DNA of 33,201 bases from Prasinococcaceae sp. CCMP 1430 (taxonomy: Eukaryota > Prasinodermophyta > Palmophyllophyceae > Prasinococcales > Prasinococcaceae): assembly GCA_013416795.1 (NCBI GenBank), contig RQSC01000025.1:55232-88432 (forward strand), in the 5' to 3' direction. The notes under the pieces were generated by a model that searched no databases, was not told the origin of the DNA, and was given only the letters and a program-made list of their open reading frames with translations. Positions 540 through 14,240 of the stretch are shown here, piece after piece. The position numbers and the translations under genes are program-made. Each line of letters opens with the position of its first letter. Within the stretch, counting starts at the first letter, position 1.

Positions 540-2243
540 TACGGCGACGGCCGCACTGCCGCGACCGGCGCTCGGCAGAGGGGGCACTGCGCGCGGACCT
601 TGAGCCACTCGTCCATGCAGCGGAGGTGGCACGCGTGTCCGCACGCGGGCAGCCTGCGCAGCTGCTGGCGGGGCTCGAGCTCCGCCAAACAGATGGCGCA
701 GGCGTCCGCCTGCGCGCCGGACGTGGCGAAGCCATCGTCCGCCCCGGCCGATGATGCTCCGGTCGTGGTGGGAGCGCGGGCCGACACCAGCTCCAGGGGA
801 AGTGTTGCGATGGCCTCTTCGGAGAGGCCAGCTGGGGCCGCATCCTTCGCGGCCTCCGCAGTGCCAGCCTCGTCGACTGGTCGGAGAGTGGAGAGGAGTG
901 AGCGCGCGAGCGCCGCCACGTCGCTGGCGTTGCTCTCGAGCGTCGCGGCACCCGCAGACGTTGCTGCGGGTTGAGGCATTGCTCCAGAGCGTCCTCAAGC
1001 AATGTGACCACGCTTTGGGGGCCACGGGGGAGCGGCAGGGCGGCGCGTCAGCGTCCATGATCATGTCCTCGCTCCCGGAAAGACGTAAGCGCACGCGCGC
1101 ACGCGCACACCCGAGCGTACGAGACCAGCCCGCGGCGCACCTGTCGATGAGCGCGAGCTGCCGTGATCGCTGGTGCTGAACCTGCGGGTCCACGCCAGTG
1201 TCTCCGGTGACCGTGGCAGCAGAAGTGATGGCGGCGCGATGCTCAGCGCGCTCCGCGTTGAGCAGCACTGCAAGGGCCGAGAGCTGCCGTCGGCGCAGGC
1301 CGAGCTGCTCTGCGCGCAGCGCGCGCAATTCGTGCATCGACGACTCCTGCGCGGCGCGCAGCCGGCGCAGGCGAGTCTGCAGCGCGGCGCTTCCTTCGAC
1401 GCTCGCAGCGGACTCGCCTCGAGGCGCGTGGTGCTGCGGCTGCCGCACCCCAGGCGGGCGCATCACGCGCAAGTTTGAGCGCTCGTCCTCATCCACCGAG
1501 GTGGCCCAGAAGAGCGATCGCCGCGCACCCCGCGGGTTGCTGCGCTCCATGTTTTGCGGTGGGGCCGGTCGCAGACGCAGACGCTGTTCGGCAGTCTGCT
1601 CCCGCTGGCGCTGCGATGTGCGCACGAGCTCTCTCAGGACTGACGTGGCGTCGTCCGTCGGAGACCTCGACAGGAGCGCGTGCACGTGCGAGCCCGAGCG
1701 CGGCGGCTGCGTTGGATGGCGCTGCAACGCGGCGACCGCCAGCCCCGGCGGGGACTGGTGCAGGGGTGCCGGCCTCGCTCGCCGCAGCACCCCCCCTCGC
1801 GCGCGCCCCTCGCTCGAGAGCGCGGGCCATCTCCGCGCCGCCGTTCCCGAAGGACTCCCGCTGCTTGGCGAGCCGCGCTGTGGGGAGATGCGGGGCACGG
1901 CGCCAGCTGCGTCATCTGTCCCGGCGGAGAAGAGTCCCCGAGGCTGCACCCGCGCGCGCGAATGAGACTGCGGCGGTGGCTGAGTATGATTCTCCGCGCG
2001 CGCGCCCTGCCATCTCGGGCGTAGCTCCCTGGCTGACAGGGCATACGGCGGCGACGGGGGCAGCCTCACGCTAACGGGGGCGCCCTCAGACGCCACGGCG
2101 CTGCGCATCGTCGCGGAGGGCGCCCTGGCGCCCTCAATCTCGCGCCCGCCCACTGCGGTGCCCGGCAGACTGAGCAGCGAAGCGACCGTTCCTTGCCTTG
2201 CGCGCTCGAGAGCTCGCTCGGCGCGCTGCTGCGTGGAGTCCAT
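512..2243 (-). CDS. RING-H2 finger E3 ubiquitin ligase-like protein (one unresolved splice)
   Basis: Exon 1 runs from the ATG at 2243 to about 1141. It encodes a disordered Ser/Pro/Arg-rich region and then a likely coiled coil rich in Leu, Arg and Glu (about 1150-1400). A plausible donor follows (GACAG|GTGCGC, intron from 1140). The last exon, 512 to about 960-994, encodes GLSEEAIATLP followed by a full RING-H2 finger: CAIC, CGHACHLRC, CPLC (spacing C-x2-C-x15-C-x-H-x2-H-x2-C-x10-C-x2-C). Such fingers bind E2 enzymes and promote ubiquitin transfer; the substrate is unknown. The two parts lie in different frames. The RING frame is closed by a stop at 995-997, so a splice or sequence error lies between 1141 and about 960. 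CCGCAG at 969-964 is a candidate acceptor but does not match the phase of the obvious donor. The last residues and stop are encoded by telomere-like repeats. It is divergent from the kinase gene. Confidence 0.7.
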
Positions 2244-3197
2244 CGCCCCCCACCCCCCACCCCCCACCCCGGCTGCTTTCCCGCGCCGTGCCGCTCCGAG
2301 GCGCTCCGCGGCACGGCGCTCCGAGTCGCGGAACGCGCCGCGCTGCACCCCCCAGCGCAAACACCCTTTCCCCGCTTCTGCGCGCACCTCTCTTCCCCCT
2401 CCGTCCCAACGAGCGGCTCGTGCCCCGCCGCAGGGCCGCGCGGCCGCGCCGCGCGCGCGAATTTCAAAAATCGCGCGCGCGGCGCGGGCGCAGTGCGTTC
2501 TGATGGGGCGACGCCACGCGGGGGCGAAGGCACACCCACCGGCCTCGGCCGGCCCGCCATTCGTCCGGTCGGTCAGTCAGTCATTCAGTCAGTCAGTGGG
2601 GGACAGGCAAATGTTCCGGTGAAAGAGGATTGAGCCCGAAGGTGAGAATTCGATCCGGGAACGGCCGCGAGGCGCGCGCGCGCGGCGCGGCGCGCGCGGC
2701 CAGCCAGCCCCCATCCCCCATCCATCCACCCTTGGTTTGGTTGTTGGTTGGTTGGTTGGCGTTGGCGCGGAGCGGCACCATCCCGCCAGACATCCATCCT
2801 GTGCCGGCCTCGCGCGCGCGTCGTCCGATCGCTCGCCGTCGGCCAGTCAGTCAGTAGCCCAGTCAGAGTCAGACTCGGAGCGCTCGCTCGCGCGCGCTCG
2901 CGGCGCCGTGCTGCTGCCAGCTGGCTCGCTCGGTCGGTCGCGGTGGCAGCTGCCGTGATGTGTGCGCCGCGGCCGGTCCAGACGTGTGTCAGTGCCATGC
3001 TGACGAGCAACAACACCCTCGATCGATGCGTGAGATCGGTGTTGAGACCTCCGAGCTGACCCTTGGCAACTTCCACTTCCGACCGGGTGCGCAGTCCGGG
3101 TGTGACCTTTTGTTTGACCTTGGCTTGACCTCGCCAGTCAGGCTGTCGCCGCCCGACTCCTCGGGTTCCGGAAGCACGCGTGCAACGGACGGTGCAG
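2244..3197. promoter_or_regulatory. Divergent promoter region, RING-H2 gene / WEE1 kinase
   Basis: This intergenic stretch separates two divergent starts. It holds G tracts on the minus strand next to the RING-H2 ATG (2246-2272), CAGT-type microsatellites (2569-2598 and 2844-2873), a GGTT-type run (2735-2760) and a less GC-rich segment (2980-3200) with one protein-like open frame (listed separately). No TATA box is evident. Confidence 0.5.
2246..2272 (-). promoter_or_regulatory. G-tract (quadruplex-capable) immediately upstream of the RING-H2 start
   Basis: On the minus strand, four runs of four to six G separated by single T residues end two or three bases before the ATG at 2243. This satisfies the G-quadruplex sequence pattern and would lie in the 5' UTR or core promoter. 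The function is inferred. Confidence 0.4.
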
Positions 3198-3235
3198 ATG
3201 GCTCGCCCGTCGGCTCTTCCGATGGGCTGCGGTGA
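3026..3235 (+). CDS. Possible small upstream ORF or 5' exon before the kinase gene
   Basis: A 69-residue ATG-started frame with balanced amino-acid composition (for example ELTLGNFHFRPG and LGLTSPVRLSPP). Its GC content is lower than the flanks, unlike the Arg/Ala-rich chance frames around it. It overlaps the proposed kinase start at 3198 in another frame and ends with a possible donor (CTGCG|GTGATG at 3231/3232). It may be an upstream ORF, the real first exon of the kinase, or chance. No family is recognised. Confidence 0.25.
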   Translation: MREIGVETSELTLGNFHFRPGAQSGCDLLFDLGLTSPVRLSPPDSSGSGSTRATDGADGSPVGSSDGLR

Positions 3236-5822
3236 TGGGGAGCTCGGAAGCGCGCGCGCGCGGCGCCGCCGGCGCAGCCCCTCGGCCGGCTCGCGAGCGG
3301 GACGCCGGGTGCGTTTCGATGGGCGAGCCGGGAGCGGGAAAGGCGCTACGAAAGAGGGCGCGGGCGCGCGCGCGCGCAAAAAGCGCAAACTTCTCGCGCG
3401 CAGGCCACACCGCGCCCGCGGCGCGCGGGGTGCGGAGCGCGGGTCGGACGCCCCCCTTCCCCCCCCACCCACCCACACAACCACCACCACCACCCTCGCG
3501 GACCACTCCTCCCCCCTACTGCCCCCTCCCCCCCCCCCTCGCGGTTCCCGCGGAGGCGGCGGGCGGAGGGGGCGGACGGGAGGCGCCCGGTCTGTTCCGA
3601 GCCGGCCGCGTGCGCAGCGCGCGCCTCCCGGATGGCGCCCTCGGCGAGGAGGCGATCGCCGGTGCTCGGCGAGCCTGGGCCTCGCGGCGGCTGCCGACGC
3701 CGACGCGCGGCGCATCGGCGGTGGCGGTGGCGATGGTTCAGGCGCCAGCGGGGGCGCGGGCGCGCGCGGGCTGCCCGCGCAGAGGAAGACCCGCTCGCCG
3801 CTAGGCCTGCTGCACGGGAGCCCCTCTTTCGAGGGGAGCTACAGCGCGGCGAAGGCGCCACCGCCGGGCACTGCCGCCGGTGCCACTGGGCGCGCGACGG
3901 CGAAGCAGCCCGCAGGCGCCGAGCGGCCGCACACGGCGCCAGCGCGGTCGCCGGACACGCCGCTGTCGGTGCTCGAGGAGGCACTGCGCCTGACGCCGTC
4001 CCCGCTGGACAACGCGCCGCCGCCGAGGATATACGACCCCTGCGACGGCACCGACCCCTCGCGAAGGCTGAGTGGAGTGCTCGCCGCCGGCACGCCCGGC
4101 GGCGAGGGCGGAGGCGCGTTCGCGCGAGAGCCTTCGAGCGCGAGCGACATGCCGTGCACGCCGACCGCGGAGGACGTCGCGAACGCTGCGGCGAAGGGCT
4201 TCGGTGGCAACTTCGGACCGCCCGCGTCGGCGACCTACTCGCCCGTCGCTCTCGACGCGCGGCCGCCGCGCCTGGACGTCGTGCACTTCGGCAAGTCGCC
4301 GAGCTGCAACGGCGCCTCCCCGCGCGTCAGCGCGGGCAGCCACACGTTCGGGCGCTCGCCGAGCAACGGCGCAGGCCCGTTCTCGCCCGACGCGGACACG
4401 CCCACGTGGCCGCCACCCGATCGGCAGCAATTCGGCGCAGGCGGGTCCTCACCGGGGACCAACTTCGTCGGCGGTAGCGCACCGATCCCGTGTCCCGAGG
4501 CGCCGCGCCCGAACAAGATGCTGGCAGCAAGGATGCGCCTCGCGAGCATCAGCCGCTCGTCGAGCCTCAGCGGCAGTCGCAGCTTCGGGTCAGACTCGAT
4601 GGACTTTTTCGCAGCGCAGGCGGGCCCGCGCGAGCTCGCGCCTCTCACACGCCAGGACTCGCTCACGGAAACGAAGCTCCTGGTGACAACGCGCGCCAAA
4701 ACGCTCGCGAGGTCGCAGTCCGTGTTCGAGTACGAGGACCAGTTCCACTCGTACCAGCTCATAGGCAAGGGATCCTTCAGTGAGGTGTACCGCGCGAGGC
4801 ACCGCCTCGACGGCGAGCTCTACGCGGTCAAGCGCACCATCCGTGAATTCCGGAACAGGTCGGACAGGGAGAGCTATCGCCACGAACTCGATGCGGTGGC
4901 CGACTTGCCTCTGCATCCCAACGTGGTGACGTACTTCCGTGGCTGGCAGCAGGGGAAGCACTTCTGGGTGCAGATGGAGTACGTTGTCTACGGCAGCGTC
5001 AAGAGCGTCATCGAGCGGCTCGCGCCAATGGAGCTGCCGCTGCTGGCGGCGTGGGGGATCGTGCGGGAGGTTGCGGCCGGGCTGGACTTTTTGCATGCCA
5101 ACAACATCATGCATCTGGACATCAAACCTGACAACATCTTCGTGGACGATCACGGCATTGCCAAAGTGGGCGACTTCGGTCTCGCTGTCGCAGATTCGAA
5201 GTGGGGCTGGGAGGATGGTGACGGCGGCTACCTCGCGCCTGAGCTGCTCGTTCTCGACCACACGGTGGTGAAGCCCACTTTCGCTGCGGACGTCTTCTCG
5301 CTCGGCGTCATCATGTACGAGCTCGCGTGCCACAAGAGGTTGCCGCGCGACCGGGCCGAGCGCAAGGCGGCGCTCGAGCAAGCGCTCTCGACAAGCACAG
5401 ACTTGAAGCTGGAATTGCTGCAGCTGGCAGCGCGCTGTCTCTCGTGCGATCCGAGTGCGCGCCCTACAGCGGCCGAGATCTACGCGCAGTGTCCGCCGCC
5501 GAAGCCCGGCACACGCGCCGAGGAGCAGGACGAGAGGGCACGTGCGGTGCTCGCTGAGGTGCAACAGGCCGAGGACGAGGTGCCGCTCGTTGAGCAGGTG
5601 ATGCAGGAGCAGGCGCTCCTCCAGCGGACGCAGCTGCAGCAGCAGCAGCACGAGCTTCGGGCAGCCGATGAATTGCCCTTGCACGGCTCCCCCATGTACA
5701 CGGCCCGACCGGGCAAGCATGTCGGCAGCACCGCCCGCCCACCGCTCTCGAACAAGCGCCAGCGCATGAGCTTCGAGATGGTCGACGTCTCACCGGTCCA
5801 GCGCATGAGCCTTGACGGCTGA
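3198..5822 (+). CDS. WEE1: WEE1/MYT1-family inhibitory cell-cycle protein kinase
   Basis: The kinase domain starts near residue 516 of 874. It has the glycine loop GKGSFSEVY (523-531), the VAIK-type lysine 545, the catalytic loop HLDIKPDN (639-646), DFG (659-661) and a GDGGYLAPELL segment matching the MYT1/WEE1 pattern EGD-R(Y/F)(M/L)APELL. It also has FSLGVIMYELA and a GWQQ..HFWVQMEY hinge region typical of WEE1. The family phosphorylates the inhibitory Tyr/Thr of CDK1 and delays mitosis. The roughly 500-residue N-terminus is disordered and rich in SP/TP motifs, as in CDK-regulated WEE1s. The C-terminal tail has a short poly-Gln and further SP sites. The start is uncertain: 3180 is GTG, 3198 is the first ATG, and the first 190 codons are low complexity, so a shorter protein or a 5' intron is possible. 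No membrane anchor is evident, which favours WEE1 over animal MYT1. Confidence 0.88.
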   Translation: MARPSALPMGCGDGELGSARARRRRRSPSAGSRAGRRVRFDGRAGSGKGATKEGAGARARKKRKLLARRPHRARGARGAERGSDAPLPPPPTHTTTTTTLADHSSPLLPPPPPPRGSRGGGGRRGRTGGARSVPSRPRAQRAPPGWRPRRGGDRRCSASLGLAAAADADARRIGGGGGDGSGASGGAGARGLPAQRKTRSPLGLLHGSPSFEGSYSAAKAPPPGTAAGATGRATAKQPAGAERPHTAPARSPDTPLSVLEEALRLTPSPLDNAPPPRIYDPCDGTDPSRRLSGVLAAGTPGGEGGGAFAREPSSASDMPCTPTAEDVANAAAKGFGGNFGPPASATYSPVALDARPPRLDVVHFGKSPSCNGASPRVSAGSHTFGRSPSNGAGPFSPDADTPTWPPPDRQQFGAGGSSPGTNFVGGSAPIPCPEAPRPNKMLAARMRLASISRSSSLSGSRSFGSDSMDFFAAQAGPRELAPLTRQDSLTETKLLVTTRAKTLARSQSVFEYEDQFHSYQLIGKGSFSEVYRARHRLDGELYAVKRTIREFRNRSDRESYRHELDAVADLPLHPNVVTYFRGWQQGKHFWVQMEYVVYGSVKSVIERLAPMELPLLAAWGIVREVAAGLDFLHANNIMHLDIKPDNIFVDDHGIAKVGDFGLAVADSKWGWEDGDGGYLAPELLVLDHTVVKPTFAADVFSLGVIMYELACHKRLPRDRAERKAALEQALSTSTDLKLELLQLAARCLSCDPSARPTAAEIYAQCPPPKPGTRAEEQDERARAVLAEVQQAEDEVPLVEQVMQEQALLQRTQLQQQQHELRAADELPLHGSPMYTARPGKHVGSTARPPLSNKRQRMSFEMVDVSPVQRMSLDG

Positions 5823-6314
5823 ATCGGTGCAGGCACTCGGCTCGGCGTGGCGTGCGCACGGGACCGCAATACTATATTCTATACAGACTCGACCCCCCCA
5901 CAAACTGGCAGTGACAAGGACGGCAGGCGGTGACAGCCTGGCGCACGGGGCTCTCGTACACTATAATTTTGCGACACTACTGTACATATCAGTGGCGCAG
6001 TCCGCGGCGCGGGCACGCCCTCGCGTCTCCGCCGGCATCGCGTGCACCCCGTCGCCACCCACCGCTCAGCGCGCCCAGCACATCGTATAGGCTGCTGCGA
6101 GGAGCTGCGTCGCAAGCTCAAGTGCGGCGCGGGCGTACGCGCCAGCGTCCGCATCGGCGGCGGCTGCAGCTCCGACCCCGGCGCAAGCGCGTGAACCCTA
6201 AACCCTAATTCGTGTGGCTTGGGTGCGCTGGGCGGGGCGCCGCGGACTCTCGTGCCACACACCGCGACGAGCGCCCTCGGCGCGCGTCGCTGTGCGCGGA
6301 GGGCACTGTCGTGG
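5823..6314. promoter_or_regulatory. Intergenic region between kinase and YkgJ-type gene
   Basis: It holds an AT-richer kinase 3' UTR (about 5865-6000) and then the presumed promoter of the next gene with an AAACCCTAAACCCTAA-type motif at 6194-6210. No other gene is seen; the frame opening at 6219 starts with TTG. Confidence 0.45.
6194..6210. repeat. Telo-box-like motif (two CCCTAAA units)
   Basis: AACCCTAAACCCTAATT, about 105-120 bp upstream of the ATG at 6315. In land plants AAACCCTAA is a known promoter element (telo-box). Here its role is inferred from sequence and position. Confidence 0.7.
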
Positions 6315-7202
6315 ATGGTGGCCCAGGCTTCGACTGGGCGAGTGCCGCCGCGACGGGGGGCTTCCAGAGGAGGCGGCGGGCGCAGAAAGCGATGCACCAG
6401 GCGCGCCCGCGCGGTGGCTGCAGGGGACGGTGGCGCGCACGCACCAGCGCCTGAGTGGGTCGCGGCCCGTGGCGGTCTGCCGTTTGATTGCACGCGCTGC
6501 GGAGCGTGCTGCTCCGCGCGCGGCCGGGACGAGTACAACTCAGTGTTCGTGAGCGACGCCGAGGCGCGTGCCATCGCGGGCGCCCTCGGTTACACGCATG
6601 GCGCCTTCGTAGAACGCTTTACTGAGGTCGTTACCGGCGACGTCCCCGCCGTGGGCGGGGGCACGAAAGAGGTCACCAGGCGCATGCTGCGCTTCACCGC
6701 CGAGGGGGACTGCCCGCTCCTGGACACAACGACGAAGCTGTGTTCCGTCCACGCGGTCAAGCCCGTACAGGTACGAGCGCGCGCACGAGCGAGCGCGCAT
6801 GCGAGCGCACCTGTGCGCGTCTGCTCGCTTGCGCCTCGTAGCGCTGACTCCCATGCATGCGCGCTCGCCTTGCAGTGCCGCACGTGGCCGTTCTGGGAGG
6901 AACTGCTGGTTGATGAGGCGACGTACGCATCAGAGGTGCAGCAGGTGTGCCCCGGCTCGAGCTTCGCGCAAGGTGATGGCGGCGCACCGCTCGTGCCGCT
7001 CGCAAGCGTGTGTGCGCAACGCGACGAAACGCTCGCGTGGGAGGCAGCGCTCGATGCAGAGGGGGCGGCTGCAGAGGCGCGTGATAGCGAGGGAGACCCG
7101 AACGGGCTTACCGCGGAGCCCTTGCCTCCACAGCTCCTCGCAGCGGCCGCTCTACCACTCGTGGCGGCGCTCGCAGCTCTCTCGCTCTACGGCGGCGCTT
7201 AA
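6315..7202 (+). CDS. YkgJ/FliB-type CxxCxxCC zinc- or iron-chelating protein, plastid-targeted (2 exons)
   Basis: CDS 6315-6770 joined to 6876-7202, 260 residues. The CxxCxxCC family signature FDCTRCGACC puts Cys at 59, 62, 65 and 66. The second half follows as CPLLD...CSVH (C133, C143) and, across the splice, CRTWPFW (C153), matching the family pattern C-x-FLD...C-x-IY..RP..CR.WPFW. Members are thought to bind Zn or an Fe-S cluster; the substrate is unknown. The first 50 or so residues are Arg/Ala/Gly-rich, like a plastid transit peptide. The C-terminus has a 20-residue hydrophobic stretch (LLAAAALPLVAALAALSLY), a likely tail anchor. The intron at 6771-6875 is 105 nt (GTACGA donor, CTGAC branch at about 6844, TTGCAG acceptor). 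It is divisible by three and has no stop, so retention would add 35 residues between two motif cysteines. The gene is convergent with the PhyH fusion. Confidence 0.8.
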   Translation: MVAQASTGRVPPRRGASRGGGGRRKRCTRRARAVAAGDGGAHAPAPEWVAARGGLPFDCTRCGACCSARGRDEYNSVFVSDAEARAIAGALGYTHGAFVERFTEVVTGDVPAVGGGTKEVTRRMLRFTAEGDCPLLDTTTKLCSVHAVKPVQVRARARASAHASAPVRVCSLAPRSADSHACALALQCRTWPFWEELLVDEATYASEVQQVCPGSSFAQGDGGAPLVPLASVCAQRDETLAWEAALDAEGAAAEARDSEGDPNGLTAEPLPPQLLAAAALPLVAALAALSLYGGA

Positions 7203-7354: not shown

Positions 7355-7402
7355 TCAGGCGCTCGCTCGCTCAGGCGCTCGCTCGCTCAGGCGCTGCTCG
7401 CT
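7355..7402. repeat. 16-bp tandem repeat, three copies
   Basis: Period-16 units of the form TCAGGCGCTCGCTCGC begin at 7355, 7371 and 7387. The third copy supplies the TGA stop (7387-7389, minus strand) and last codons of the PhyH fusion protein. Confidence 0.75.
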
Positions 7403-9226
7403 CGCGCTCGCAGGATCTCATCGGCGGGCGGGGCGGGCGGCGAGCCCAGACCAAGAGCGTCCCAACCCGGCACGATGCTGAACAGCGCCTCGGCGGCGCT
7501 GATGGACCACGTCTCGTACTGCTGTGCGATGCGGCCCTGCGAGTCGAGTGTGTACGTTGTGTCCCCTGTATACGCGCGCACCTTGGCACGCCCCCATGGC
7601 AATCGTATGTCCCCTTCGAGGCGCCACTCAACAAAGACTTTCCCATCGTCGGTCACACTCGCACTTAGCAAATCGAAGCGGCTGGTCGCCGGGTCGAAGA
7701 GCTGCGACACAACAGCAGTGTACTTCTCCCGCCCAATCACGTCCGTAGTGGGATCAATGAAGTGTGCTCCGGGGGCCACGAGCTCCTCTGGCAGGTCACC
7801 CGTTACATAGTACCGCCGGTTGACCAAGGCGTCCACAATGTTCTCCTTGGCAGCCACGAGCTGCTCGGGGCTCAGTGCCCCCACACCAGCACCGTCTGCG
7901 CCATCTGCGCGCGCCCGCGGCGCCCCAACGAGCCCCGCCGCGCTACCGGCTGCCGCCGTCGCTACGAGGCCCGCCAGGACGTCACGCCGTCCACTGGGTG
8001 CCGTAGCCTCGACCGCGGCCGCCTCGTCGCGCGGCTGCTGCTGCTCGCTGGCACCGTCATCATCACCCTCGTCACTGAGGCCGAAGTCGCGCAGCGTCCA
8101 CTTGCCGAAATCCTCGGCGCGAATTGAGTTCGAGCCATGCTTCCCGTTCGGCAATGGCCACTCGTGCTGCGCCGACACTGTAAAATAGAAGAGCACCCGG
8201 CGCTTGTTGGAGCTGTTCTCGCGCCCGCAGTGCAGCAGGCGCGAGTCGAACACCGCCACGTCGCCGCACTTCAGAGCTGACTCGCACGCGTCGTTTGAGG
8301 CGATGAAGCGCTCCTTGGCGCGCTGCGGGCTGTTCCATAGCTCGTGCGCCTGCGCGTGAACGCGCGAAGGTGCGCGCGCGGGGCGGGCTCATCGTTAGCG
8401 TGCATGTCGCGAGCGCGCGCGCTCCCAGCGCAGCACGCTCACGTGCAGAGCACTCGCGCGCTCGCATGAACACACCCTCGGAGTGTGGGTCTTCGGCAGG
8501 AAGACCGTGTGCCCCATCCCGTCTTCCACATCCTGCAGAGCGATGAAGAAGGTGTACAGAGGCGCCATGCTGGCGTTTGGAAACTGCGGCGAGGGCACCA
8601 CGATGGTATCAGCGTGCACGCACTGCCGCGGGGCACCCGGGTCGCTCACGAGCGTGCTCACTTCGTGCAGCAGCGCGTCGGCGCCAACGGCCTCCCGTAG
8701 CAGCGGCCCCAGGCGCGACACGGCCTCGCGCAGCGCGCGCTGCACGGTTGGGTTGCTGACGGGCAGCCACATGTCCTGGAAAGGAAGAGCCGCGCGTCCA
8801 ATGGCGCACACGCGCGCAGTTGCGCCAACGCGTTAGCGCGAGGGCGATGAGCATGTGAGCGCGCGCGCGTGCGCGCGTGCTCGCGAAGCACACCTGTCGG
8901 CGCCCGAATGTGCCCTGACCACGGCAGTTCACCTCTCCGAATGACTCGTCGAAGCCCACGTCGCCCGCCTCAACCTCACGCTTGGCCTCGTCAGAGAGCG
9001 CGTTGGCGTAGGCGAGCATCTCCGCAGCTGTCTCGGGCGTCAGCGCTCCTGGAATGCCAACGCAGCCCTGGCTCTCGAGCAGGCCGGCTAGCGCGGTGGG
9101 CTTCTCGGCCATTGTTTCTCGCGGACAAACGATAAGCGGTTTGACCCCGCCAGTCTTAGCGCCCACGAGCTCGCGCGCCTCCTTCTTCGCCAGCCGCTCG
9201 GCGTTGACCGCCGCCGCAGACTTCAT
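7387..9226 (-). CDS. PhyH-type dioxygenase fused to an internal Tat/lumen-like signal and an NTF2-like domain (3 exons)
   Basis: Exons 9226-8894, 8775-8476 and 8349-7387 (all phase 0) give 531 residues. The introns are 118 and 126 nt with GTGTGY donors, CTAAC branch points and TTCCAG or GCGCAG acceptors. Residues about 30-290 are a phytanoyl-CoA-dioxygenase-like Fe(II)/2-oxoglutarate oxygenase: CVHADT gives the HxD pair (H165, D167), and LLHCGREN with KRRVLFYF gives the distal His (251) and the 2-oxoglutarate Arg. After an acidic/Gln linker comes GRRDVLAGL (RR at 332-333), a hydrophobic Ala/Gly stretch and an ARAD cleavage-like site (about 357-361), as in Tat signals of thylakoid-lumen proteins. 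Residues about 370-505 are NTF2/SnoaL-like, resembling plastid DUF2358 proteins. The last exon has no ATG, so the NTF2 part has no AUG start of its own there. The start at 9226 is the first ATG before the conserved region; an in-frame upstream extension is open. Confidence 0.8.
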
Positions 9227-9596
9227 GAAGGACGCGCCGAGGCCAGCGCGCGCGCGCAAGCGCGCGGGCCGCGGCCGGGACCGCCCCTCCCCCCATCGCA
9301 GACACGCGCCCGCACGTGCCCCCCTCCCGATCGCGCTTTTCGGCCTCGGTTTTGGCGCCCCCGCCGCGCGGGGCGTTTTCGAACGCCACCAGCACACACG
9401 CACCAGCGCGCCGCCTCGCCTCGCGCGCCGCTACTGGCCGACTTATAACAATAAAACACATTACATTTAACCACGGGAGACTCAAAGCGGCGGCGCGCGC
9501 GCGAGCGCGCGAGGCGGCGAGGGGGGCGGACTCGACGCAACGCGCATGCGAATCATCGTGATTTTTAACCCTGTGTTGTTAACCCAAATAATGGGC

Positions 9597-9613
9597 AAAC
9601 CCTAAACCCTAAT
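9597..9613. repeat. Telo-box-like motif AAACCCTAAACCCTAAT
   Basis: Two perfect CCCTAAA units in the divergent promoter region, preceded at about 9565-9585 by degenerate copies (TTAACCCTG, TTAACCCAA). Confidence 0.75.
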
Positions 9614-9658
9614 AGTGTTCAGCCTTGCGGAGGGTGCTGTTGTGGCGGGGGTTGAAAA

Positions 9659-9684
9659 GGGGGGGGGGGGGGGGGGGGGGCCCA

Positions 9685-9736
<52 letters not shown>
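9659..9736. repeat. Poly-G tract (G22-CCCA-G52)
   Basis: Twenty-two G (9659-9680), CCCA, then fifty-two G (9685-9736). It may be a real homopolymer, but a tract this long is also a typical place for sequencing or assembly error, so its length is unreliable. Confidence 0.9.
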
Positions 9737-12735: not shown

Positions 12736-13935
12736 TCAGATCTGCTGCGCGACCACGACGGCCATGGTGCGATCCTTTTTGCTGAACTTGGCCCTCGTCG
12801 CCTCCACGTCGACTGCGAACGGCAGCGCCGCGCGCAGCGCACACTCACCCCCAACGTCGAGCGAGATGCCCGCATCGCTGACGTCCAACGCAACGTCCGC
12901 AGCAGATGTACATGCGGGCAGCGCTACCACCATCGCCGCACGGGCTTGGCCGAAGGCGCCAGCAGGCCGCGGCTCCCAACGATACTCGAGGATCGGCAGC
13001 TGCTGCACGGGCTCGCCAAGTTCAACCACCTGCTGCCGCGCGCGCGCCATTGACTCGCTGCCCTGCCGCCCTCCCTCCCGCTTCTGCGCTCCAGCGCCAC
13101 TTTCAGCCTCCTCAGGGACGTCCCCGGGCCTTTCGAATGCTCTCGTCACAGCGGCGTTTGAGCTCTGCGACTGCGGTACTCTACCCTTGTGGTCTTTCCT
13201 GTCCCAGTCGGCGCCTGCTCGCAGCAGCGTGCCGACAGCCTCGGCACTTCCAGAGCGCGCCGCGTCGTGCAGGGGGGTCGAGCCCTGCCTCGTCGCGGTG
13301 TTCACGTCAGCACCGCGCTCGATGAGAACGGCGAGCACGGCTGCGTGCCCCTGCTTGGCCGCGAGGTGCGCTGCAGTGAGTCCAAGCACGTCCTTCATGT
13401 CGACGTGCGCAACGAATCCCGCCCTGGGCGTTGCGGCGGGCGCAATGTGGACCTCGCCGTCCGCGCGCCAGTCGAGAAGCGCAGCGCACATGTGCGCATG
13501 GCCGGCGGCCGCAGCCCTGTGCAGGGGCGTTTGCCGGGCCTTATCCAATGCCGTGAGATCTGCTCTCGCGCGTAGGAGCACTTCGGCCACCTCGACGCGA
13601 CCGGCCCACGCCGCCTCGTGCAGCGCCGCCCGCGCGTCCTTATTCTTCAGGTTGGCGTTGGCGCCCCCGCCGCCGTCTGCGCGCGGCTCTACCAGCCACG
13701 CGACAACCCCCGAATGCCCACCCCGCGCGGCTCGGTGCAGCATGGTGTCAAGTCCCTTTGGCTCGCGCTGGTTCACGTCGAGGCGCTGCTCGGCGACGTA
13801 TCGCACGACCTGCTTGAGCTGGCCCTCGGCCGCGGCGAGTGCTGGGCGAACGCGTGCCCGAGCTGCCGCCCGTCGCCGAGCGACGTCATGACGCGGGTGC
13901 GCGGCCGGCCCTGGCCACTCGCAGCTGCAGCTCCC
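12736..13935 (-). CDS. Ankyrin-repeat protein with C-terminal PIH1_CS-like (p23/CS fold) domain; 5' end unresolved
   Basis: About five ankyrin repeats are seen (for example DTMLHRAARGGHSGVVAWLV, ARAALHEAAWAGRVEVAEVL, QTPLHRAAAAGHAHMCAALL, STPLHDAARSGSAEAVGTLL). A linker follows, then EYRWEPRP and a stretch of about 85 residues with MVVALPACTSAADVALDVS, LDVGGECALRAALPFAVDV and AKFSKKDRTMAVVVAQQ. These match the C-terminal CS-like domain of PIH1 proteins (LPLPYPV..., AKFDKK...L.V). PIH1 proteins act with HSP90/R2TP, often in axonemal dynein preassembly; the job of this one is inferred only. The frame is open up to 13935 but contains no ATG upstream of the repeats, so a 5' exon or a frameshift is missing. 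A neighbouring frame starts with ATG at 13889 (MTSLGDGRQLGHAFAQ) and would join smoothly with a one-base shift. It is divergent from CDT2 and convergent with arginyl-tRNA synthetase. Confidence 0.75.
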   Translation of the reverse strand, partial: GSCSCEWPGPAAHPRHDVARRRAAARARVRPALAAAEGQLKQVVRYVAEQRLDVNQREPKGLDTMLHRAARGGHSGVVAWLVEPRADGGGGANANLKNKDARAALHEAAWAGRVEVAEVLLRARADLTALDKARQTPLHRAAAAGHAHMCAALLDWRADGEVHIAPAATPRAGFVAHVDMKDVLGLTAAHLAAKQGHAAVLAVLIERGADVNTATRQGSTPLHDAARSGSAEAVGTLLRAGADWDRKDHKGRVPQSQSSNAAVTRAFERPGDVPEEAESGAGAQKREGGRQGSESMARARQQVVELGEPVQQLPILEYRWEPRPAGAFGQARAAMVVALPACTSAADVALDVSDAGISLDVGGECALRAALPFAVDVEATRAKFSKKDRTMAVVVAQQI

Positions 13936-14195
13936 TTATCACCTCCTCCTCCCTCCACCTCTTCACCAAGGAGGCCTTCGACGGCCCCACCCCCACCCGC
14001 CCACGGCCCCGCGCGCGCCCCGCCGCGGCCGCGCCGCTCTGTGGCCGCGCCGCACGCGCGCTCCTTTTCCTTCTGCTCTGCATACTCTTGCCGCCCGCCG
14101 CATGCCACTTGGCGCACCCGCGCCGCCGCGCGCGGGCGCCGCGCGGTGCCACTTGGGGAACCGCACGCGCGTGCCACCACCAGCATGTCCTGTAC

Positions 14196-14240
14196 TTAGG
14201 GTTTAGATTTTAGGGTAATGTTGCATATCTAGGGTTTAAT
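14196..14240. repeat. Telomere-like motif cluster
   Basis: TTAGGGTTTAGATTTTAGGG (14196-14215) followed by AGGGTTTAAT (14231-14240): three TTTAGGG-type units, partly degenerate, in the ankyrin/CDT2 divergent region. Confidence 0.7.

Follow-up and report, generated by a model that had tools for sequence, protein, structure and literature searches.

Nuclear-encoded proteins of a primary plastid require an amino-terminal transit peptide, and those bound for the thylakoid lumen carry a Sec or Tat signal directly behind it. The genome of the small, basal green alga Prasinococcaceae sp. CCMP 1430 holds a lumen-type precursor with this order, the PsbP-like protein L049 (PsbP match of 23.5 bits, exactly at the cut-off), in which an ATG and an Arg-rich transit peptide are followed by a short spacer, the motif GGRRDML and an AxA site. 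No match to PsbO was found in the genome search, and matches can be missed in this genome. Two proteins may also share one nuclear gene, as in SODcp-RPL32 of Malpighiales, a known case of a transit peptide shared through alternative splicing (PMC8429499). A fusion of kynureninase and 3-hydroxyanthranilate dioxygenase (KYNU-HAAO) has been reported for Prasinoderma coloniale, whose genome has 69.8% GC (PMC7455551), and in the genome studied here we observed both enzymes in one ORF (L051; G000:C73, around 675050, minus strand 1111-3447). This ORF, together with the GC content of the window and a green-type light-harvesting protein, makes P. coloniale or a close relative the very probable source.

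The gene described here lies on the minus strand of the window, by which we mean the whole stretch of 33,201 nucleotides that was analysed (68.6% GC, no N), and joins a PhyH-type oxygenase to a Tat-like signal and an NTF2-like domain. As in KYNU-HAAO, two separate proteins are fused in a single ORF of the same genome, but the two enzymes of KYNU-HAAO belong to one pathway and present no conflict of compartment. As in SODcp-RPL32, one nuclear gene encodes two proteins, one of which would need plastid delivery; there, however, the transit peptide comes with the first protein and the two products are told apart by alternative splicing, and neither feature is seen here. With L049 the gene shares the spacer, GRRD(M/V)L, a hydrophobic Ala-rich run and an AxA cut site, whereas it lacks the ATG and the Arg-rich transit peptide of L049 and has the PhyH domain where these would be. 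Rebuilt from the sequence, the gene has three exons with every join in phase 0 and encodes 531 amino acids, in agreement with the three phase-0 exons in one frame of an earlier note on this DNA. Its features are as follows.

9226-8894, minus strand: exon 1, 111 codons, with M1 at 9226 and an alternative start, M39, at 9112
9076-8197, minus strand, both introns included: PhyH domain (PF05721), residues 51-262, Pfam E 7.7e-14
8893-8776, minus strand: intron 1, 118 nt, GTGTGC...CCAG (GT-AG), with the branch site GCTAAC at 8837, 57 nt before the AG
8775-8476, minus strand: exon 2, 100 codons, holding the HxD metal motif (H165, D167)
8475-8350, minus strand: intron 2, 126 nt, GTGTGT...GCAG (GT-AG), with the branch site GCTAAC at 8399, 45 nt before the AG
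8349-7387, minus strand: exon 3, 320 codons and the stop (TGA at 7387)
8076-7993, minus strand: acidic/Gln linker, SDEGDDDGASEQQQPRDEAAAVEATAPS, with GC3 nearer that of the NTF2 half than that of the PhyH half
7992-7903, minus strand: putative Tat/lumen-type signal, residues 331-360, GRRDVLAGLVATAAAGSAAGLVGAPRARA followed by D
7788-7522, minus strand: NTF2-like domain, SnoaL_2/DUF2358 match, residues about 399-487, within a fold of about 368-502

Exon 3 carries the C-terminal half of the PhyH domain, the linker, the Tat-like segment and the NTF2-like domain in one frame. It contains nine ATGs, none of them in frame, which confirms that the last exon encodes no methionine, as the note had stated. 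In the linker, frame 0 has the best coding score of the three forward frames, and this score is unbroken across the PhyH/NTF2 junction. A gene for a CxxCxxCC zinc/iron-chelating domain protein with one intron (6195-7202, plus strand) is convergent with the fusion gene and ends about 185 bp from its stop codon. Between the fusion gene and a divergent ArgRS-like gene, telomere-like TTTAGGG units adjoin a long C tract (9590-9730), and a second telomere-like stretch lies near 14195-14240. Convergent with the ArgRS-like gene, a frame on the minus strand (12739-13935) encodes ankyrin repeats and, behind them, a PIH1 CS-like domain.

The profile of PhyH, a family of 2-oxoglutarate Fe(II) oxygenases, scores 52.9 bits against a curated cut-off of 22. 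In an alignment with AndA (5zm2), H165-x-D167, H251 and R262 of the PhyH half match the same motifs; a shorter alignment with DhiD (8zyb) covers only the HxD motif and the distal histidine (H165, D167, H251). The domain and the HxD...H...R residues are thus common to the fusion protein and these solved PhyH relatives, and the earlier identification of a PhyH-type oxygenase with HxD, distal His and Arg agrees with both the Pfam match and the AndA alignment. Because these metal and co-substrate residues are kept, the oxygenase is probably active. Two PhyH paralogs of the same genome, on C62 and C89, share the domain, a start near the equivalent of M39 and a similar C-terminal boundary. The C62 paralog ends ...RWSIRALLGTRM followed by a stop, where the equivalent here is ...KWTLRDFGLS; over this region its C-terminus, KERWSIRALLGTRM, corresponds to FGKWTLRDFGLS in the fusion protein. 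The C89 paralog has its stop at about the same place. Unlike the fusion protein, which runs into the linker at this point, neither of the two paralogs examined bears a further domain.

The C-terminal half matches both SnoaL_2 (PF12680; E 2.9e-7, 31.4 bits against a cut-off of 27) and DUF2358 (PF10184; E 1.2e-6, 29.1 bits against 24.3), and with both above cut-off either assignment is possible. A structure model from a single sequence was poor. A model built from a four-sequence alignment that included three paralogous stretches reached a pTM of 0.65, with core blocks mostly at pLDDT 78-94, and matched SnoaL, ketosteroid isomerase (KSI) and NTF2 structures with Z of 11-14. The C-terminal domain is therefore modelled as an NTF2-like alpha/beta cone fold, in line with the NTF2/DUF2358-like domain first read from the translation. 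The genome holds four other DUF2358 matches, with 25-31% identity where they could be aligned by sequence, and no close second copy of the NTF2-like protein. Other DUF2358/SnoaL_2 proteins share the fold and Pfam matches above both cut-offs, whereas the domain of the fusion protein sits behind an oxygenase and a Tat-like signal. The relative on C52 and C53 differs in being part of an FHA-DUF2358 protein: at L010 (G000:C52:329038-332397) FHA and DUF2358 lie in one open frame with a sub-threshold PAP/fibrillin match behind them, and L011 (C53) is near-identical to this match.

Between the two domains, residues 331-360 read G-RR-DVLAGLVATAAAGSAAGLVGAP-RARA followed by D, that is, a twin arginine, a charge-free hydrophobic stretch and a predicted AxA site. 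GC-rich DNA easily yields runs of Ala and Arg, and such segments were therefore counted by a fixed rule: RR, then 12-20 residues without charged or strongly polar side chains and with a mean hydropathy of at least 1.3, then AxA. The six-frame translation of the window and loci gave 21 matches in 388,264 codons, or about 0.003 expected per 60-codon stretch, a rarity that rules out chance or composition as the origin of the segment. The only other match recognised ahead of a lumen-type domain is that of L049, MAEMVASVVVGGVGTLPTRHRRCRRQRPRQQSRSECTAAKAGAAEVDAGVARAGGRRDMLSSAAAAAMAGAVLSTGAPCASAANV, which bears a near-identical signal (GGRRDML...ASAAN); spacer and signal together read AAEVDAGVARAGGRRDML in L049, resembling EAAAVEATAPSGRRDVL in the fusion protein. 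The scan and this endogenous counterpart support the Tat-like signal, GRRDVL with a hydrophobic run and a cut between ARA and D, that had been proposed within exon 3. The NCBIfam model TAT_signal_seq (TIGR01409), which is a bacterial model, gives the segment 11 bits against a cut-off of 16.7. The linker ahead of it continues from the PhyH domain and contains a low-complexity GAT/GAG/CAG run; acidic residues make up 23% of the 53 positions that precede the RR. Third-position GC (GC3) differs between the PhyH part, at 0.84, and the NTF2 part, at 0.73 (P = 0.007), and the linker, at 0.71, sides with the latter.

What gave rise to this arrangement is best explained, on the balance of these observations, by a real fused ORF formed through an in-frame merger of two genes, a reading that we hold slightly more probable than its alternatives together and that includes the case of a product processed in the plastid. 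Lacking the expected plastid entry signal at its start, the ORF would reflect a recent fusion of genes or else a fault in the assembly. The ends of the PhyH paralogs, the order of elements in L049, the step in GC3 and the frame-0 score together fit two genes joined near the boundary between DFGLS and DEG. The ancestors would have been a gene for a PhyH-family 2-oxoglutarate oxygenase and a lumen-type NTF2-like gene, probably neighbours on the same strand. In the merger the PhyH gene would have lost its stop and the second gene its start codon and transit peptide, while the Tat-like signal and the mature domain of the latter would have been kept. One three-exon mRNA, whose single transcription we infer, would give one polypeptide of 493-531 residues. 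If this precursor reaches the stroma, the simplest route would be for the internal signal to insert as a hairpin that leaves the PhyH part facing the stroma; the thylakoid processing peptidase would then cut between ARA and D, freeing the NTF2-like domain in the lumen with no need for a stromal cut; this route of a hairpin and a single cut is drawn from how Tat signals work. If the stroma is not reached, the signal would be a relic within a cytosolic fusion protein.

The unbroken frame and the presence of both domains speak for the merger; the signal-like segment is intact as well, and there is no separate start. No branch site appears to back another gene structure, and the other fused genes of this genome, KYNU-HAAO and FHA-DUF2358, also count in its favour. 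A real single ORF is further favoured by a linker that stays coding and in frame throughout, and by the want of splice signals for any alternative. An intact-looking signal would, on the other hand, be odd if it is unused, and since the genome has no close second copy, losing the NTF2-like protein should be costly; both points count against the merger, as does the lack of a relative with this architecture in the viral and prokaryote collections searched. That the one close copy of this protein has kept its signal whole suggests continued use, which argues for separate transcripts, plastid import or an assembly gap concealing an ordinary gene.

Of these, a gap in the assembly is unlikely, if not strikingly so. 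Two ordinary genes would look fused if the PhyH stop, a spacer, an ATG and a transit peptide were missing from the assembly, and the absent pieces are exactly those needed to separate the genes; the low-complexity run in the linker also speaks for a gap. Only one in three accidental losses, however, would preserve the frame; there is no N anywhere in the window, and frame 0 holds its coding score across the junction without a break. The published P. coloniale genome was polished with long and short reads, although the assembly analysed here may differ from it (PMC7455551). For that species 12 Gb of RNA-seq were also produced.

We think it rather unlikely that the locus makes two proteins from two transcripts, the lumen protein coming from an mRNA that has a first exon or promoter to itself and is spliced to exon 3 inside the linker, as in SODcp-RPL32, and the PhyH mRNA reading through or ending separately. 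The Tat-like signal and its spacer look intact and are probably still used, with no other close copy in the genome, which would favour such an arrangement. As exon 3 lacks an in-frame ATG, a separate precursor could arise only through a 3' splice site within the linker or close to it. The introns available for comparison are five confidently delimited ones from four genes (two of the fusion gene and one each of the ArgRS-like, CxxCxxCC and C89 PhyH genes, with intron 2 of the C89 gene excluded), a small set that leaves room for an atypical intron; all five have a GCTRAC branch site 28-57 nt before the AG. Not one linker AG has a YTRAC at a distance of 15-70 nt, and among the 27 AGs between 8330 and 7960 the only one with a branch site in range is that at 8330 (intron 2's own), which lies well before the linker begins. 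The alternative splicing with a different first exon that the earlier note had suggested thus has no YTRAC branch site at any linker AG. The two remaining forward frames of exon 3 have the scores of non-coding DNA, and a first exon would be confined to the introns and exons of the PhyH part or to the 0.9 kb that leads up to the divergent ArgRS-like gene. Starts at ATG 8393, within intron 2, or at 8338, in another frame of exon 3, would give Arg-rich, transit-like peptides, but these were rejected because the exon 3 frames concerned score as non-coding (about -1 bit per codon) and any GC-rich DNA yields such peptides.

The question of whether the whole chain could enter the plastid turns on its amino-terminus. 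The context of M1 (9226, TTCATGA) is weak and that of M39 (9112, ACAATGG) is good, and with the paralogs starting near the equivalent of M39 the fusion protein may start there rather than at M1. By composition, neither form looks transit-like. In the extension M1-M38, acidic residues account for 11%, Ser/Thr for 8% and Arg for 8%, where the L049 precursor has 5%, 14% and 19%, and the first 40 residues from M39 are 3% basic. Between 9500 and 9112 there are 18 AGs, none with a YTRAC branch site nearby, so that nothing supports a hidden 5' exon encoding a transit peptide, and the in-frame stretch upstream, to 9430, scores as non-coding. Neither by composition nor as a hidden upstream exon with a branch site was a plastid transit peptide found ahead of the Tat signal.

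These results weigh against the polyprotein cut in the plastid that had been put forward earlier. As one case within the real fused ORF, and sharing in its probability, we regard as quite improbable a precursor whose amino-terminus leads it into the stroma, where a cut at the internal Tat signal would release the NTF2-like protein into the lumen and leave the oxygenase in the stroma or tethered to the thylakoid. In its favour, the RR, hydrophobic run and AxA site are intact and close to the endogenous signal of L049, and the 38 residues ahead of M39, an extension not seen in the paralogs, begin with a stretch that scores as coding. Against it stand the acidic residues and the paucity of Ser/Thr and Arg in that extension, the few basic residues of the M39 form, the weak context of M1 and the unseen upstream exon.

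The architecture itself is likely to be new. No relative with the same order of domains was found in viral and prokaryote collections, and no record of PhyH paired with an NTF2-like domain in the literature searched; since the collections hold almost no eukaryotes or algae, novelty is likely rather than established. The collection search with the fusion protein returned one short match of 25 residues in Lysinibacillus. By eye, a light-harvesting protein of this genome is of the green type, and chlorophyll-binding matches occur in open frames of 2,598-6,555 codons (G000:C52:736658, C73:248265, C35:7494 and C2:131320), which may be fused proteins or may simply reflect how few stops occur in GC-rich DNA.

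If the signal is a relic of the merger, or if the assembly has a gap, the locus would serve to caution that, where an algal genome is compact and rich in GC, a domain fusion has to be backed by cDNA. There is a small chance that one ORF serves two compartments, the chain being imported whole, its NTF2-like domain passing into the lumen and the oxygenase staying at the stromal face; its signal would then start about 330 residues into the protein. A natural precursor with a folded enzyme of about 300 residues before its Tat signal would test in vivo whether the thylakoid Tat pathway accepts internal signals, and also how a gene fusion can survive when its halves belong to different compartments.
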